Source: Bacillota bacterium
GTDB taxonomy: Bacteria > Bacillota > Sulfobacillia > Sulfobacillales > JAIMBI01
Length of the DNA stretch: 36,936 nt
Assembly: GCA_021797815.1 (NCBI GenBank)
Contig: JAJZYZ010000024.1
Location: 1-36,936, forward strand
Reading direction: 5' to 3'
The translations under genes were made by a program, and so were the position numbers. Under the pieces are notes generated by a model. It ran no database searches, had not been told where the DNA came from, and was given only the letters and a program-made list of their open reading frames with translations. Positions 2,045 to 8,687 of the stretch are shown piece after piece; the stretch's first letter is position 1, and the number at the start of each line of letters is the position of its first letter.

Positions 2045-2274
2045 GAGGCGATGAACTGGAGGAGCCCGCGGATGACGCCCACCATGAGCACCAGGAGCAG
2101 TCCGACCGCCGCCCGCATCATCACACTTTTGGCTGCCTCGACACTCCGCGGCGAACTCGCGATCATATAGCGTACGCCTCCATAGACCATCACCAGGGTG
2201 AAGAGTCCTCCGGAAACGGTCACCAAGAGCGTCGTCAGTCGGGAAATGACGGCCACCATCTGGGTATCCGGCAT
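2041..2274 (-). CDS. VirB2/TrbC-like pilin subunit
   Basis: A 77-residue protein with two hydrophobic helices joined by a short basic/polar loop. The segment 'VYGGVRYMIASSPRSVEAAK' is the typical loop of Gram-positive VirB2-like proteins, which form the pilus or pilus-like channel lining. The start is ATG at 2274, preceded by AGAGGAGGACCC. The frame is open further upstream to a TTG at 2346, which would add a basic-hydrophobic leader; the excellent ribosome site at 2274 argues against it. It is the first gene of the operon. The region before it can fold so that the ribosome site is paired (see the leader hairpin), and that region plus the first six codons recur in a diverged copy near 5.0-5.2 kb. 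Confidence 0.7.
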   Translation of the reverse strand: MPDTQMVAVISRLTTLLVTVSGGLFTLVMVYGGVRYMIASSPRSVEAAKSVMMRAAVGLLLVLMVGVIRGLLQFIAS

Positions 2275-2277
2275 GGG

Positions 2278-2324
2278 TCCTCCTCTGCGTATGCATCTAC
2301 GCAACGCTTGCATGATAAGGAGGA
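2278..2324 (-). promoter_or_regulatory. virB2 leader able to mask the ribosome site
   Basis: On the minus strand, TCCTCCT (2324-2318) is the exact complement of AGGAGGA (2284-2278), the ribosome site of virB2. Between them TGCGTA (2303-2298) and TACGCA (2291-2286) form a second perfect stem with a six-base loop. The two stems would stack and bury the ribosome site. The pairing is seen directly; control of translation is inference and needs transcription to begin upstream of 2324. Confidence 0.4.
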
Positions 2325-2363
2325 GAAGAGCAATTTTTCGTGTCAAACTTGGCTAGTCGTCTT

Positions 2364-2387
2364 GCGCCTTGCCATATGGCAAGGCGC
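2364..2387. repeat. Perfect 24-bp palindrome in the virB2 upstream region
   Basis: GCGCCTTGCCAT is followed at once by its exact reverse complement ATGGCAAGGCGC. It lies 90-113 bases upstream of the virB2 start codon. A two-fold symmetric site of this length may be a repressor operator for the conjugation operon. The equivalent place in copy B keeps the right half (GGCAGGGCGC) but has lost most of the symmetry. Confidence 0.6.
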
Positions 2388-3582
2388 TTGGGAACGCCAA
2401 GGGAGCAAGGATTCGACACGATTCGATAGTTTTACCCAGATTGCGAGCGCAAGAGAATCCTCGTTTAGAAGCAGGCTTCGGCTAACGCGACAGCGTGTGG
2501 CGGCCCCGTTTTTCGCCGACCCCAAAGCCGGGCACCTCGTCCAGGAGGGGGAAGCCGTCCCCAAACCCGCAAACCGCTGCGGGCACGACCCATCGTGACG
2601 ACGGTCCGGAGCACGCGGCCTCGACCCGGACAGAACTTGGACGCCCCGCCACCTGGCAGGGTCCCGGCGACAGGCCGTAACATCCGTTCCTGTGATGTGG
2701 GAGACCTCTCAAGTGGCTCGCGTCCGGGAGCATCAACGGCCCTCTGTCCTGGCCACGTGCAGACGGGGCCCGGGTGTCCGGGCCTGCTCTCACCAGAGGC
2801 TCGCGACAGCCAGGTTCTGTCTTTGCCAGCGGGTTCGATGGCGAGAGCCTCTCGTCTCCCGTCGGTGGGTGAGGCCGTACGCCAGGACCCCCTCTTGTGT
2901 CTGACGGTGGCGCCAGCAGCCGTCCGTACCAGACGGAGGCTCATCGAGAGCCCCCGGCCGCGTCACAGGGAAAGCCGGGGAAGTTGACGCTGGCTAACGG
3001 CAGGCCTCGGCGCGGGCTTGGAACACGGCGTTCTGCGGGCATTGACCCGCACAGGTGGCCAGGAATGGCAGTCGCGTCGGGCTCGGCCCCCGGGGGAGCC
3101 AGCAGGCGGCCGCGGGCGCGATCGGCCGCACCGTGGGACCCAGCCGGTGGTCGGCCGGGGCCTTCATCTGAATCTGGTGCGGCGGTCGGGCGGCAGAGCA
3201 TGCGAACAGGAGTCTGACCGTCCGGTCCGCGGTGAAGCGCCAGACGGCGTCGACGTCGTGAAAGCTCCTCGGCCCCGAACGGTTTCCGGGACGGGCCCAC
3301 CCCTTCTGCCCGCAGGAGTGAGCCCCACCTTCGAGGGGCATCGTGTCGGCAGGGGGAGCCGGGTGCGGAATAAACGTGGTGCCCCGACATCCATATCTGA
3401 GGGATGGGTTCCGCTGCTCGCAGGTCATGGGTGCTGGAGGCTCACACATGGACGGCAGGTGACATTCACGGACGGACCCTTCTGGCATTAAAGACTCGCG
3501 AGCGTGGCCGCGCTCCGGGGTCGAGGCGAGCACGGCCGCCTACGGCGATTTCTACCGGCGCACTCCCGTCCGTGGAGCGTGG

Positions 3583-3630
3583 GACCCTTCGTTCCGAGGT
3601 CCGATGCCCTGGCGCATCGGTCCGAAGGTC
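3583..3630. repeat. Extended imperfect hairpin
   Basis: An inner stem CCGATGC (3601-3607) with GCATCGG (3614-3620) sits inside an outer stem CCTTCG (3586-3591) with CGAAGG (3623-3628). There are short internal loops and no T-run on either side, so it is not a classic terminator. Function unknown. Confidence 0.4.
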
Positions 3631-3674
3631 TGACCGTCGTTGAGCGTCCCTGTGCCGGCCTGAGGAGGGCCATA

Positions 3675-4019
3675 ATGGCGTGGACTGGCCAAATGGTGTT
3701 CGGGGGAGATCTTGGCCCAGGCGAGTCTGTTGGAGTGGCGGGATCACGTCGGAAGAAGCACCAAACCCCACCAAAGTGGGAATACGATCGTTTGGCCGGG
3801 GCCGTCCATAAGTCGCGGAGACTTCGGCATCATCGGCCAGACCATCCTGTCGATCCTGTTTTCGCCGTCGTCGGGCGGGTCCGGTACGAAGAGTCGAACC
3901 GCTGCCAGGACCACTCGGGTACTTTCGATAGGTCGGCGGCTACGGCCGGGAGACACGACAGATGCTGTGACGTTACTCCGTCGGACGGCGGCAGGGTATC
4001 GTGTGTCACGCTCGATTAG
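3675..4019 (+). CDS. Possible small protein upstream of the mutarotase gene (doubtful)
   Basis: A 114-codon frame begins at ATG 3675, six bases after a clean AGGAGG, and ends at TAG 4019 just before the mutarotase ribosome site. The product starts 'MAWTGQMVFGGDLGPGE' and is rich in Arg, His, Asp and Cys. I recognise no family, and a competing open frame overlaps it. The ribosome site and the close spacing to the next gene are the only support, so a chance frame in GC-rich DNA is more likely than a gene. Confidence 0.2.
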   Translation: MAWTGQMVFGGDLGPGESVGVAGSRRKKHQTPPKWEYDRLAGAVHKSRRLRHHRPDHPVDPVFAVVGRVRYEESNRCQDHSGTFDRSAATAGRHDRCCDVTPSDGGRVSCVTLD

Positions 4020-4039
4020 GAGGTTAGGAGGCGAGGCGC

Positions 4040-4342
4040 GTGTCGCGAGCGGTGTTTCGTATGCGGGTCAAGGCAGGTCAAGAGGCGCTCTATCAGGAGC
4101 GTCACAAGGCGGTGTGGCCCGACGTCGAGGAGGCGTGTCGGCGCGCCGGCATGGCGCGCTACACCATTTTCATGGCGGGGCGGGAACTGATTGCCTATTT
4201 TGAGGCCGACGACCCGCCGGCGACCCTGGATCGCTTGCAGAAGGATGTCGTCATGCATCGTTGGTGGGCGTTCATGGAACCGGTCATGGACGAAGACCCG
4301 CAAGACGCCCGGGCGTACGACGAGGTGTTCCATCTGGACTAA
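4040..4342 (+). CDS. L-rhamnose mutarotase-like protein (RhaM/YiiL family)
   Basis: A 100-residue dimeric alpha/beta-barrel-type protein. Family members interconvert the alpha and beta anomers of L-rhamnose in the cytosol. The residues known as catalytic or sugar-binding in E. coli RhaM are present at matching places: Tyr18, His22, Tyr41, and the Trp75-Trp76 pair in 'HRWWAF'; length is also right. The start is GTG at 4040, after AGGAGG and TAGGAGG copies at 4018-4032. No other rhamnose gene is in the window. It is the only clear gene between the conjugation operon and the thioesterase operon and lies on the opposite strand to both. The substrate could be another sugar, so no gene symbol is assigned. 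Confidence 0.85.
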   Translation: MSRAVFRMRVKAGQEALYQERHKAVWPDVEEACRRAGMARYTIFMAGRELIAYFEADDPPATLDRLQKDVVMHRWWAFMEPVMDEDPQDARAYDEVFHLD

Positions 4343-5018
4343 GCCGCACGAACGGCCGTACCGGGGCCGATGGCCGATTGGATCGGGCAGCCGAGGCGTC
4401 GGGTGTAATCGGTTTCGGGACTGGCGTCGTGATTTTTGGGCGGGACTGGCGGCGCCGCCCCGAGGCCCGGCGGCCGTGCATCGGAACCATGGTCGGGGCC
4501 GGGACGGATCGCCCGGCGCACGTGAGTTCCCGGTGCCATTCCCCCGTGGGACGCCGTGAGATCCTGCAACCGGCGACCGCATAAAAACCTGGACGTCGCC
4601 CGCGAACGTCGTCCCCGTCCTTTTTGGCCGCGCCGCGCGTGCTGCCTGCAAGATGGGTCTGTGGCCTCGCCCGCCGCAGCGGGAGCCAGCGAGTGGATCG
4701 GCGAAAACGGGTGTCACAGACGGGTCTTGCCGAAGCGCCCGGGTGGACGCAGGCCGAGGTGATGAGGGGGCGCGCGGGGGTCCGTCTTCCAAGACTGTAT
4801 GATGCCCCCGACACGCCCCGCCCACCGCGAGCGATAAGAAGAAGTCCGGCGGGTCTTTCCCACCAGGAACGCGATGGCCTCTGAGATAAAGCGGCTGCTC
4901 GTCGCCCACCATCATGAGGCTTCCCCCGGCGCTTCCTCTACGAGCGGCGCCCGAACGGGACGCCTCGCCAGCGCCGGCCTTTGCCGCCTGGATGGGCTCC
5001 CGCCGGGCACGGATTTCT
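4343..5018. other. Gene-poor stretch, 0.7 kb
   Basis: I see no gene, RNA or clear terminator after the mutarotase gene. Frames are open but give Arg/Pro-rich products without family patterns. The right end adjoins repeat copy B. A frame that begins at the ATG of copy B (5036) reads MPDACM, parallel to virB2 MPDTQM, then becomes Pro/Gly/Arg-rich and stops at 4938; it looks like the stub of a lost gene. Confidence 0.5.
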
Positions 5019-5216
5019 CATGCAGGCATCCGGCATGGCCTTCCCCACTCGCGCGCATCGACGAAACGCCCGCGGAATAAGGCGGTTAGGGCCGATCTTC
5101 GTGTTAAAAGCGCCAGCACTGCCTGCACCCGGCCATTCGGCAGGGCGCGCAGCGACTTCCAAGGCGCCAGGATTCGACAGGGTTCAACCGTTTTACCAAG
5201 ACTGCAGTCGCGGCAA
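5019..5216 (-). repeat. Direct repeat copy B, decayed virB2-type leader
   Basis: This is the partner of copy A (2257-2455). It keeps an ATG CCG GAT start (ATG at 5036) with a GGGGAAGG ribosome-like site, a TTAACA box where copy A has TTGACA, and the GGATTCGACA and GTTTTACC blocks. It ends at the stop codon of the thioesterase gene (5223-5225). The reading frame after its ATG shares only the first six codons with virB2 and then fails, so this copy is a remnant. The leader hairpin and the 24-bp palindrome are not preserved. Confidence 0.7.
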
Positions 5217-5222
5217 ACCCGG

Positions 5223-5699
5223 TTAAGGAGATCGCCGTGGCCGCCGCGACAGCCTTTCACGCCGGCGCTCTTCCGCGGCCTCATAGCGGACCTGCTCCTC
5301 CGCAGTACTCAATATCAGCGGGGGAATCTCGACGGGACGGCCGGCATCGTCAATCGCGACGAAGGTGAGGTAGGCGGTACTGGTCTTGGTCAAGGTGCCT
5401 TGCAGCAGGTCGTCGCAAAACACATTCACCTCCACTTCCATGGACGTGCGGCCGACCCAGTTCAGATGGGCCTCGAGGCGGACGACCTGACCCACCCGGA
5501 TAGGGTGGCGGAAGTCGACACTGTCCATCGACGCGGTGACGGCGACCCGGCCCGCATGGCGGGCTGAGGTGATAGCGCCGGCAAGGTCGATGAGGTGCAT
5601 GACCCGCCCGCCCAAGATGTGTCCGAGCATGTTGGAGTCGTTCGGCAAAACGAGTTCGGTCATCTCAGTCCGGCTCTCAGCGACCGTCTTTCCGATCAG
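5223..5699 (-). CDS. Acyl-CoA thioesterase, hotdog fold (YciA/BFIT type)
   Basis: A cytosolic thioesterase of about 158 residues that would hydrolyse acyl-CoA to free acid and CoA. The hotdog core is visible: 'MTELVLPNDSNMLGHILGG' then 'RVMHLIDLAGA', 'VTASMDSVDF' and 'RVGQVVRLEAHLN', with the Asn-Asp and Gly-Gly features of this family. The start is uncertain. No ATG, GTG or TTG exists at the expected N-terminus. A CTG at 5699 overlaps the preceding stop as CTGA and yields the family-like lead 'GKTVAESRTEM'; the first ATG is at 5663 and would remove that lead. It is the last gene of the gatC-gatA-gatB-rlmD operon. The stop adjoins repeat copy B. Confidence 0.85.
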   Translation of the reverse strand: MIGKTVAESRTEMTELVLPNDSNMLGHILGGRVMHLIDLAGAITSARHAGRVAVTASMDSVDFRHPIRVGQVVRLEAHLNWVGRTSMEVEVNVFCDDLLQGTLTKTSTAYLTFVAIDDAGRPVEIPPLILSTAEEQVRYEAAEERRRERLSRRPRRSP

Positions 5700-5854
5700 C
5701 GCGCCCGTGGCGACCTCTCCCCTTCCGAAGACTCTCGCCCGATTTCCTGGCCGCGCTCCTCGCGCTCCATCTGGTATCCCTTTTGAATCAGCCAGAACGT
5801 GAGGAACAAACCCAAAACACCAATCACCACGATGAACCACAGGAAAAGGCTCAT
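5696..5854 (-). CDS. Small single-pass membrane protein, 52 residues
   Basis: The product has one N-terminal hydrophobic helix (about residues 3-23, 'LFLWFIVVIGVLGLFLTFW') and a charged tail rich in Glu and Arg. Its ATG at 5854 overlaps the rlmD stop by four bases (ATGA), and its TGA at 5696 overlaps the CTG start proposed for the thioesterase. This tight packing on both sides supports a real gene although it is short. I recognise no family; the role is unknown. A membrane-anchored helper or regulator is only a guess. Confidence 0.6.
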   Translation of the reverse strand: MSLFLWFIVVIGVLGLFLTFWLIQKGYQMEREERGQEIGRESSEGERSPRAR

Positions 5855-7224
5855 GTTCCCCGGTTCCCCTCCAGTGCCTCCAGCACCAGTACCGTCTCCA
5901 CATGGTCTGTACGCGGGAAGAGGTCCACGGGGGTGACGTGCGTCACCCGGTAGCCGGAAAGCCTCGCCACATCCCGGGCCAGAGTCTCCGGATCACAGCT
6001 GACGTAAATGATCTTCGTCGGTGACGCCGCGAGAAGCGCCGCGGCAACCTCCGGTTTGATGCCACGCCTTGGGGGATCCAGCACCACCACATCCGGACGG
6101 TAGTCGTGCTCCACCAGAGCGGGAAAGACGACTTCCACCGCACCCGGGCGGAACTCGATGCCGGATCCGTTCTGAAGGGCGCTTCGCCTCCCGTCCGAAA
6201 CCGCTGACCGTGACGCTTCCACCGCCAGCACGCGATATCCCTTGTGGGCCAGAAGACTCCCCATCACGCCGACCCCGGCATAGAGATCGGCGGCGTGCAT
6301 TCCGGGTCCCGGCCCGATCTCCTTCGCCACAACCTCTAGCAGCACATCGGTCTGGGCCGGATTCACCTGGAAGAACACATCGGCCCCCAGAACAAAGGAC
6401 ATACCGGCCAGACGTTCGTGCAGCTCGGGGTCTCCTGTCAGAGTAGTGGCCGGGCCGCCGAGAATGCGATTCGTACGGTCGGAATTAATGCTGAGCGCGA
6501 CACCCTTCAGGTGCGGAACCCGACGCATCAGCTCGCGCCCCCACTCCATGAAGCGCGGGTCGCGCCGGCTCGCCACCAACAGCGCTACGCTGCGCGCCTC
6601 GGCGGTGCTCACGCGCGCGACCAGGTGCCGGAGGAGTCCGCGGCCTTCCCCCTCCTGGAATGGCTCCAGGCGGAACTGATTGGCCGCTTCCACCGCCCCT
6701 TTCAGCACCTCATCCAGAAGCGGGTCCTGAACGAGACACTGGTCGGTGTTCACGACCTCATGGGTTCCGCGCCGGAACAGGCCGAGCCGGGCCGAACCGG
6801 GCCCTCCTGTCCATACGAACGAGGCCTTGGAGCGATAGCGATACGGATAGGACGGTGCCCGGACCGGATCCACCTGAACATCGGCGAGACCGCCGATGCG
6901 CCTCAGCGCATCTTCTACCCTTTGCCGCTTGTACGCGCTCTCTGCTTCGTAACTCCAGTGCTGGAGGGTGCAGCCGCCGCATTCGCGATAGATGGGACAC
7001 GGTGCGAGCCGCCGCTCGGGGGCGTGCGACTCAAGGCCGGTCAACACGGCGCGGGCGTAGCGCTGGTGCTCTTCCACCACCGCGGCATGGACGCTCTCCC
7101 CGGGGAGGCCACCGGCTACGAAGACAACGCGGCCGTCCGGCAGGGTCGCCACGCCTTCCCCGTCGCGTCCCATGCGCTCAATGTGGAGGGTGAGATGGTC
7201 AGTGGACGAAGACGCTTCGCTCAT
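5851..7224 (-). CDS. rlmD: 23S rRNA (uracil-5-)-methyltransferase, RlmD/RlmCD (RumA) type
   Basis: A 457-residue SAM-dependent enzyme that methylates C5 of a uridine in 23S rRNA (or, in related members, tRNA). In order it shows an N-terminal TRAM-like RNA-binding domain (about 8-62), iron-sulfur ligands Cys76, Cys82, Cys85 and probably Cys163, 'FFQVNPAQ' (284-291), the SAM-binding 'DLYAGVGVMG' (313-322), 'DPPRRG' (383-388) and the catalytic Cys410 in 'VSCDPETLARD'. All key residues are present. The ATG at 7224 overlaps the gatB stop by four bases. Which uridine is modified cannot be told from sequence; Firmicute members often modify two sites in 23S rRNA or U54 of tRNA. Confidence 0.88.
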   Translation of the reverse strand: MSEASSSTDHLTLHIERMGRDGEGVATLPDGRVVFVAGGLPGESVHAAVVEEHQRYARAVLTGLESHAPERRLAPCPIYRECGGCTLQHWSYEAESAYKRQRVEDALRRIGGLADVQVDPVRAPSYPYRYRSKASFVWTGGPGSARLGLFRRGTHEVVNTDQCLVQDPLLDEVLKGAVEAANQFRLEPFQEGEGRGLLRHLVARVSTAEARSVALLVASRRDPRFMEWGRELMRRVPHLKGVALSINSDRTNRILGGPATTLTGDPELHERLAGMSFVLGADVFFQVNPAQTDVLLEVVAKEIGPGPGMHAADLYAGVGVMGSLLAHKGYRVLAVEASRSAVSDGRRSALQNGSGIEFRPGAVEVVFPALVEHDYRPDVVVLDPPRRGIKPEVAAALLAASPTKIIYVSCDPETLARDVARLSGYRVTHVTPVDLFPRTDHVETVLVLEALEGNRGT

Positions 7225-8687
7225 AACGGATTTCCTCCCAGCAGCCGCTCGCGCAGCAAACGGTTGACGACGGCCGGCTCCGCCTGTCCCCGCGTCGCCT
7301 TCATCACCTGTCCGACCAGAAAAGCGAGAGCCTTGTCTTTGCCGGCACGGAAGTCTTCCGCCACCTTGCCATTGGCGTCTATTACGGTCCCCACGATAAT
7401 GGTGAGCGCGTCGATGTCGGACACCTGCCGAAGGCCACGGGCGGCCACGATGGCATCCGGGTCCTCATCATCGTCATAGATGGCCTCCAGGACCTCTTTG
7501 GCCATGCGCCCCGACAGGGTGCCATCCCCTATCAGTGCCATCAGCCGGGCGAGCCGCTCGGCGCAGAGGGGTCCCTCGCCATAGGGGAGGTGATGCGCGT
7601 TCTGCAGGCGCGCCACATCTCCCAGAATCCAGCTCACGACATCAGGAAAAGGAGCGCCGGCCGCATGCGTCGCTTCGGCGAAGCGGACGAGCCCCGGATC
7701 GGACACCAGTACCTCCGCGTCCTGGCCCCGTACCCCGTAGCCCATCATCTTGGCGGCCCACGCCTCTGGCAGCATGGGCAGTGCCTGCCGCACTTCGTCC
7801 ACCCACGCCGCCTCGAGGCGCAGCGGAAGAAGGTCTGGCTCCGGAAAGTACCGGTAGTCATTGGCCGCTTCCTTACTCCGCTGGGAGAGCGTGGTGCCGC
7901 TTGCATCATCAAATCCCCGGGTTTCTCGCGCGACCGTGCCTCCGACGTCCAGGAGGGCGGCCTGCCGAGCAATCTCGTACTCGAGGCCCCGCACAACGTT
8001 CCTAATCGAGTTGACGTTCTTGAGCTCCACGCGGGGAAGGTCCTCCAGATCGCCCTCATACCCCGCCGGCTTCAGCGAGATATTGGCGTCACAGCGCAAG
8101 GAGCCTTCCTCCATCCGCAGATCCGATACATCCAGGTAGGAAAGGGTACGGATGAGGCTGTGCAGATAGAGACGCCCATCTTCGGGCGAACGCATGTCCG
8201 GTTCACTCACAATCTCGATAAGGGGAATACCGGCCCGATTGAAGTCAACGAGCGAGCTGTCGGCCGTCCACAGACTCTCTCCTTCGTGATTGAGCTTGCC
8301 GGCCTCTTCCTCCATGTGGATGCGCCGGATGCGGACCTTCCGGTCCGTACCCAGAAGCGCCACGGACCCCGACTCGGCCAGGGGGCGATCAAACTGCGAG
8401 ATCTGGTACCCCTTGGGCAGGTCTGCATAGAAATAATTCTTGCGGTCGAAGCGCGACACCAGATTGATCCGGCACCCGAGCGCCACCGCCGCCCGGACCG
8501 CCAGTGCCACCGCCTCTTGGTTCAGGGCCGGCAACACCCCTGGGTGCCCCAGGCACACCGGGCACACAGACGTATTGGGGGCGGCGCCGAACGCAGTGGC
8601 GCAGGGACAGAACAGCTTGGTCGCGGTGTTCAGCTCGAGATGCACCTCGAATCCAATGATCACCTCGGCCCCATTGTCCAGAGTCAT
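7221..8687 (-). CDS. gatB: Aspartyl/glutamyl-tRNA amidotransferase subunit B
   Basis: A 488-residue subunit of the GatCAB transamidase, which converts Glu-tRNA(Gln) and Asp-tRNA(Asn) to the Gln and Asn forms. The family opening 'VIIGFEVHLELNT', the zinc-ligand Cys in 'LFCPCATAFG' and 'CPVCLGHPGVLP', and 'FDRKNYFYADLPKGYQISQ' are all present. The C-terminal tail domain ends near 'ATRGQAEPAVVNRLLRERL', as usual. It acts as the kinase that activates the tRNA-bound carboxylate with ATP. The ATG at 8687 overlaps the gatA stop by four bases, and its own stop overlaps rlmD. Presence of GatCAB implies that Gln-tRNA and/or Asn-tRNA are made indirectly. Confidence 0.96.
   Translation of the reverse strand: MTLDNGAEVIIGFEVHLELNTATKLFCPCATAFGAAPNTSVCPVCLGHPGVLPALNQEAVALAVRAAVALGCRINLVSRFDRKNYFYADLPKGYQISQFDRPLAESGSVALLGTDRKVRIRRIHMEEEAGKLNHEGESLWTADSSLVDFNRAGIPLIEIVSEPDMRSPEDGRLYLHSLIRTLSYLDVSDLRMEEGSLRCDANISLKPAGYEGDLEDLPRVELKNVNSIRNVVRGLEYEIARQAALLDVGGTVARETRGFDDASGTTLSQRSKEAANDYRYFPEPDLLPLRLEAAWVDEVRQALPMLPEAWAAKMMGYGVRGQDAEVLVSDPGLVRFAEATHAAGAPFPDVVSWILGDVARLQNAHHLPYGEGPLCAERLARLMALIGDGTLSGRMAKEVLEAIYDDDEDPDAIVAARGLRQVSDIDALTIIVGTVIDANGKVAEDFRAGKDKALAFLVGQVMKATRGQAEPAVVNRLLRERLLGGNPL

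Follow-up and report, generated by a model that had tools for sequence, protein, structure and literature searches.

The window analysed here, a stretch of 36,936 nucleotides from a bacterium of the order Sulfobacillales, is contig C9 of a 2.9-Mb assembly in 142 contigs. It contains a virB2-like pilin gene of a type IV secretion system (T4SS) and an acyl-CoA thioesterase gene, and the region 5' of virB2, its leader, is present in two direct copies. Copy A adjoins virB2 and copy B is joined to the thioesterase gene. Between the two lies a DNA segment, here called the insert, which contains a gene for an L-rhamnose mutarotase, rhaM (Table 1).

Table 1. Features of the virB2-thioesterase locus, in coordinates of the window
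Feature	Position	Strand	Remarks
virB2-like T4SS pilin gene, 77 aa	2041..2274	-	PF18895 T4SS_pilin, 38.1 bits (cut-off 26.6)
Copy A	2262..2514	-	start of virB2, leader/promoter and, at about 2456-2514, what remains of the thioesterase 3' end
-10-like TATCAT	2312..2317	-	TTGACA-N23-TATCAT
-35-like TTGACA	2341..2346	-	TTGACA-N23-TATCAT
Perfect 24-bp palindrome GCGCCTTGCCATATGGCAAGGCGC, operator-like	2364..2387	.	18-bp core kept in the sister species, lost in B
Tandem Spo0A-box-like pair TATCGAA-TCG-TGTCGAA (coding strand)	2412..2428	-	exact box conserved in relatives
Insert	2515..5017	.	~2.5 kb missing from the sister species; noncoding apart from rhaM
rhaM, L-rhamnose mutarotase	4040..4342	+	PF05336, 80.5 bits, E 1.2e-22
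Copy B	5024..5273	-	decayed leader duplicate joined to the intact thioesterase 3' end
Acyl-CoA thioesterase (hotdog fold)	5223..5687	-	PF03061, 70.7 bits; adjoins virB2 upstream in the sister species and order-wide

The original prediction was that the virB2 leader region exists twice, and that this would fail if the two blocks aligned no better than shuffled sequences. Alignment of 2201-2520 with 4961-5290 gave one colinear local alignment of A with B with a score of 61, against a mean of 10.7 and a maximum of 21 for 1000 shuffled pairs of preserved dinucleotide composition, and the duplication is therefore confirmed. When the 37-kb window was compared with A, unrelated stretches scored at most 24, and windows overlapping or adjoining A itself about 24-30. 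The same register was recovered by a repeat finder, with a spacing of 2761-2762. This is also the offset of the alignment at its left end, as predicted; at the right end it is 2759. The homology extends somewhat farther than the predicted blocks of 2257-2455 and 5019-5216. Its left edge is at about 2262 and 5024, the adjoining bases being at chance (p = 0.50), and on the right the last 60 nt, which in B form the thioesterase 3' end, exceed shuffled sequences on their own, weakly but with p = 0.0055. Outside both the left and the right edge the similarity drops to chance. The repeated block thus begins with the first codons of virB2, spans the entire intergenic region and ends inside the thioesterase gene, whose final ~50 nt it includes. 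The virB2 start, ATG-CCG-GAT, is common to both copies, and the predicted failure of the frame after these codons in B is borne out; B reads MPDACMRNPC... and stays open for about 35 codons that are unrelated to VirB2. Two direct homologous copies beyond chance, as in a segmental duplication, therefore flank the insert.

The sister species, represented by one genome of the same genus (G001, YP2.bin78, contig JAKATP010000006.1), has a different arrangement. It is 79% identical to the window over 2-2445 and 80% identical over 5025-8588. The two alignments are contiguous and overlap on the sister contig, so the sister species has one leader, without the insert. Its virB2 and thioesterase genes are directly adjacent, and the single leader lies between them. 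A close relative accordingly has a single copy, free of the insert, at the orthologous site, as for a segmental duplication. Neither a trace of the insert nor a match to rhaM was found in this genome, and rhaM was likewise without a match in genome G002. A chimeric contig was considered as an explanation for the window, but both flanks are equally close to the sister species, which argues against it.

Among the named relatives, which are Bacillota metagenome-assembled genomes and include Sulfobacillus acidophilus and S. benefaciens, the gene order GatA-GatB-RumA-thioesterase-virB2 recurs across the order. The gap between the thioesterase gene and virB2 is about 205-275 nt in eight loci (L069, L074, L076, L078, L081, L082, L083 and L087) and 1.0-4.2 kb in seven others (L071, L073, L075, L077, L084, L086 and L089). 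By reading of the open frames, the genes within these seven longer gaps are unrelated, for example an amidohydrolase, a DNA methyltransferase and an ABC solute-binding protein. The unrelated inserts suggest that the site between the thioesterase gene and virB2 is often invaded or rearranged, and that it is a recurrent insertion site. None of the seven has a duplicated leader, and among the loci compared the leader duplication is seen in the window only. The single copy in the sister species, together with the order-wide adjacency of the thioesterase gene and virB2, shows that it is the lineage of the window that carries a 2.5-kb insert flanked by a duplication of ~255 nt. In the single-contig genome G007 the thioesterase-virB2 locus is present twice, about 12.8 kb apart (L035 and L036; C1 1599500-1604500 and 1612000-1617500), and in the first of these (L035) the matches to virB2 and to the gene of a 201-aa product are split across frames.

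As predicted, the mutarotase gene is the only gene between the copies; rhaM is the sole stretch within 2520-5020 with coding statistics or, among the open reading frames tested, a Pfam match. Related copies are present in genus g3, with 59-64% amino acid identity to rhaM of the window and at other places in the genomes; in one of these (G003) rhaM adjoins SDR, ADH and enolase-like genes. No remnants of these neighbours were found in the insert, their nucleotide scores being within the range of shuffled sequences, and a strong tblastn match to ADH in the insert was dismissed as an out-of-frame overlap with rhaM. The rhaM homologues on plasmids are all less than 60% identical. No donor of the insert was found above chance in 10 relatives, and no mobile-element gene or terminal repeat was found at the insert. 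A transposon target-site duplication would likewise leave an insert flanked by direct repeats. It was rejected as an explanation, since the repeat is ~255 nt and not the few bases (2-14 bp) of such duplications, and neither matching ends or terminal inverted repeats nor, among the open reading frames tested, a transposase were found.

The left copy was predicted to drive a conjugation gene, which is correct only in part. What follows A is a gene for a T4SS pilin, in a chromosomal operon that is kept across the order, and the same chromosomal neighbours throughout speak for a fixed locus. VirB2 of the window is 92% identical to that of the sister species and 51-70% identical to those of the remaining named relatives in the order. 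Downstream in the operon of the sister species there are VirB4-like and TadA/VirB11-like ATPases, both below the NCBIfam equivalog cut-offs. The gene thus has the features of a VirB2-like pilin gene, its T4SS pilin domain scoring above the curated threshold and its operon including T4SS ATPases. A 201-aa product encoded at 273-878 of the window has a weak match to the SCO6880 family (20.8 bits against a cut-off of 60). With 95.5% identity to its counterpart in the sister species, it is better conserved than any other small protein of the T4SS operon that was compared.

The leader contains sequence motifs that are shared well beyond this genus. TGTCGAA is the core of the Spo0A box (PMC3485338). 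Upstream of virB2 the exact heptamer is present in 21 of 24 named loci as well as in the window, always in the coding orientation, and many of these exact boxes have a second near-box 3 nt away. Exact boxes occur at 4.09 per kb upstream of virB2 and at 0.087 per kb in the remainder of these loci, a 47-fold enrichment. A pair of -35-like and -10-like hexamers spaced by 23 nt is found in 15 of 25 virB2 upstream regions, compared with 0-5 for the other spacings tested. Spo0A itself is encoded in the genome of the window (PF08769, 152.5 bits). Two of the marks of a Spo0A-regulated promoter, a conserved TGTCGAA upstream and a spo0A gene in the genome, are therefore present. The other tandem-box site genome-wide, at C80:62645, was considered as a further Spo0A target; it sits within an open frame, so the tandem-box scan yields no further target. 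The sequence ATTCGACA, shared by A and B, recalls the 5' end of tmRNA, but neither ARAGORN nor Rfam had a match at A or B, and a tmRNA or other RNA was discarded as an explanation.

Over 2262-2445, A is identical to the sister species at 156 of 183 positions (85%), whereas in four neighbouring genes pooled only 161 of 300 fourfold-degenerate sites (~54%) are identical between the window and the sister species. A is therefore under purifying selection. Is B also maintained? Or has it been left to decay? B is identical to the sister species at 118 and to A at 117 of the same 183 positions (64% to both), and at the 27 positions at which A and the sister species differ it agrees with A at 9 and with the sister species at 10. 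This even split suggests that the duplication occurred near or before the split of the species. By hand arithmetic with the Jukes-Cantor correction, the branch leading to B is ~0.41 substitutions per site, and neutral sites have accumulated ~0.36 along a single species lineage, which suggests that B has been drifting for roughly the time of one species lineage. The losses in B are mostly changes from AT to GC, its GC content having shifted from 52% to 62%, and they are not clustered (p 0.31-0.87). Gone from B are the palindrome, the virB2 frame, the second Spo0A box and the -10 hexamer, whose place is taken by TATTCC. What is retained is one exact Spo0A box at 5173-5179 and the -35-like TTAACA; the second box reads TTCAACC. 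Retention of the Spo0A box by selection was tested and was not significant. The even spread of the losses and the equal 64% identity are as expected of neutral decay since about the time of the species split. B is an ordinary scar of insertion and duplication, and a clean case of one. The original prediction of a scar of an inserted or duplicated element is thus well founded, the sister species having the empty site with a single copy and B behaving as a remnant.

We consider it probable that the present arrangement arose through insertion of the rhaM segment with duplication of the gap, after which A was kept as a promoter and B decayed. In the ancestral state the thioesterase gene would have lain directly upstream of virB2, and the intergenic region of ~200 nt would have been the promoter of the T4SS operon. 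At about the time of the split from the sister species some 2.5 kb with rhaM would have been placed in this gap and the gap duplicated, with thioesterase-B-insert-A-virB2 as the result. A, which adjoins virB2, would have retained the promoter and remained under purifying selection, and B, separated from virB2, would have been freed from selection and begun to decay. The likely route would be recombination in which the intergenic region served as the homologous stretch. Either a circle carrying that region would have entered by a single crossover, or one end would have been joined through homology and the other illegitimately. Recombination through the leader would be the simplest way from one leader to leader-insert-leader; it counts against this route that no mobile-element gene, terminal repeat or donor was found. 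Insertions flanked by long direct repeats, which arise by single-crossover (Campbell-type) integration or by homology-facilitated illegitimate recombination, likewise have a foreign-looking segment between two direct copies of a sequence that occurs only once where the insert is missing. The window differs in that one of the copies has decayed to about 64% identity and that no donor has been found.

The insertion and duplication may instead have taken place in the ancestor of the genus, with the insert and one copy later lost from the sister species by recombination between the direct repeats. This is a variant of the same explanation, altering the timing and not the nature of A and B, and we regard it as possible but rather doubtful. 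The equal distance of B from A and from the sister species is compatible with a duplication no later than the split, but the same counts would also allow one shortly after it (by hand calculation from 10 versus 9, the 95% interval for its age is about 0.6 of the split time and upwards), and an additional loss would be needed, with neither the insert nor rhaM traceable in the sister species. That equal distance would also be seen if B were a foreign allele that had come together with the insert in a single transfer from an unsampled relative, one end being joined by homologous recombination in the leader. For such a process homology-facilitated illegitimate recombination, known from naturally competent bacteria and from E. 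coli, offers a documented precedent (PMC3240628). Such an origin is unlikely, as no closer relative of B is present in any family genome searched, and B is without the -10, palindrome and virB2 frame expected of a working foreign allele.

The surviving exact box and -35-like hexamer of B could be taken as a sign that it still functions, as a second promoter or Spo0A-binding site that would serve the rhaM region or, from a distance, the operon. With the -10 lost, the second box altered, the spread of the retained bases no better than random and B oriented against the reading direction of rhaM, we think this quite improbable. The original prediction had also proposed a family of mobile leader sequences of which A and B would be two members. 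The presence of two copies within one window is what recommends it, but there is no third copy in the genome, and the proposal is consequently not supported. The sister species has a single copy, nucleotide searches of five other family genomes recovered no recognisable second copy, the seven relatives with inserts at the same site have none, and the leader motifs stay with virB2 across the order. That A and B are members of a mobile family is thus barely credible.

The scar itself is ordinary genome evolution, and what matters more is the conserved promoter that the comparison exposes. With a conserved copy, a decayed copy and an empty site to compare, selection on a promoter can be measured directly in an uncultured lineage. 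From its motifs, the leader in A is best read as the Spo0A-controlled promoter of a chromosomal T4SS operon, from which we infer that phosphorylated Spo0A (Spo0A~P) would activate virB2. The operon is apparently under Spo0A control throughout the order. We see an even chance that the spore-forming Sulfobacillales as a whole have a chromosomal T4SS operon that is switched on by Spo0A, such that translocation of protein or DNA would be part of entry into sporulation or stationary phase, and B would then be an instance of this promoter design broken in nature. A leader that is kept by selection and has an order-wide signature of Spo0A control would link the T4SS operon to the sporulation regulator. 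In full-text searching, from whose coverage subscription journals are mostly absent, a single paper matched all three topics of this link (PMC9040811).

The proposed promoter resembles the σA promoters of Bacillus that are activated by Spo0A~P, such as spoIIG, in having an exact TGTCGAA upstream of -35-like and -10-like hexamers with unusually long spacing, here 23 nt. The spacing in spoIIG is 22 bp. The promoter in the window differs in that what lies downstream is a T4SS operon and not a sporulation gene. In addition, the boxes in the family of the window are ~65 nt upstream of the -35-like hexamer. The palindrome of A, with a core common to the sister species only, may be an operator of a dimeric regulator.
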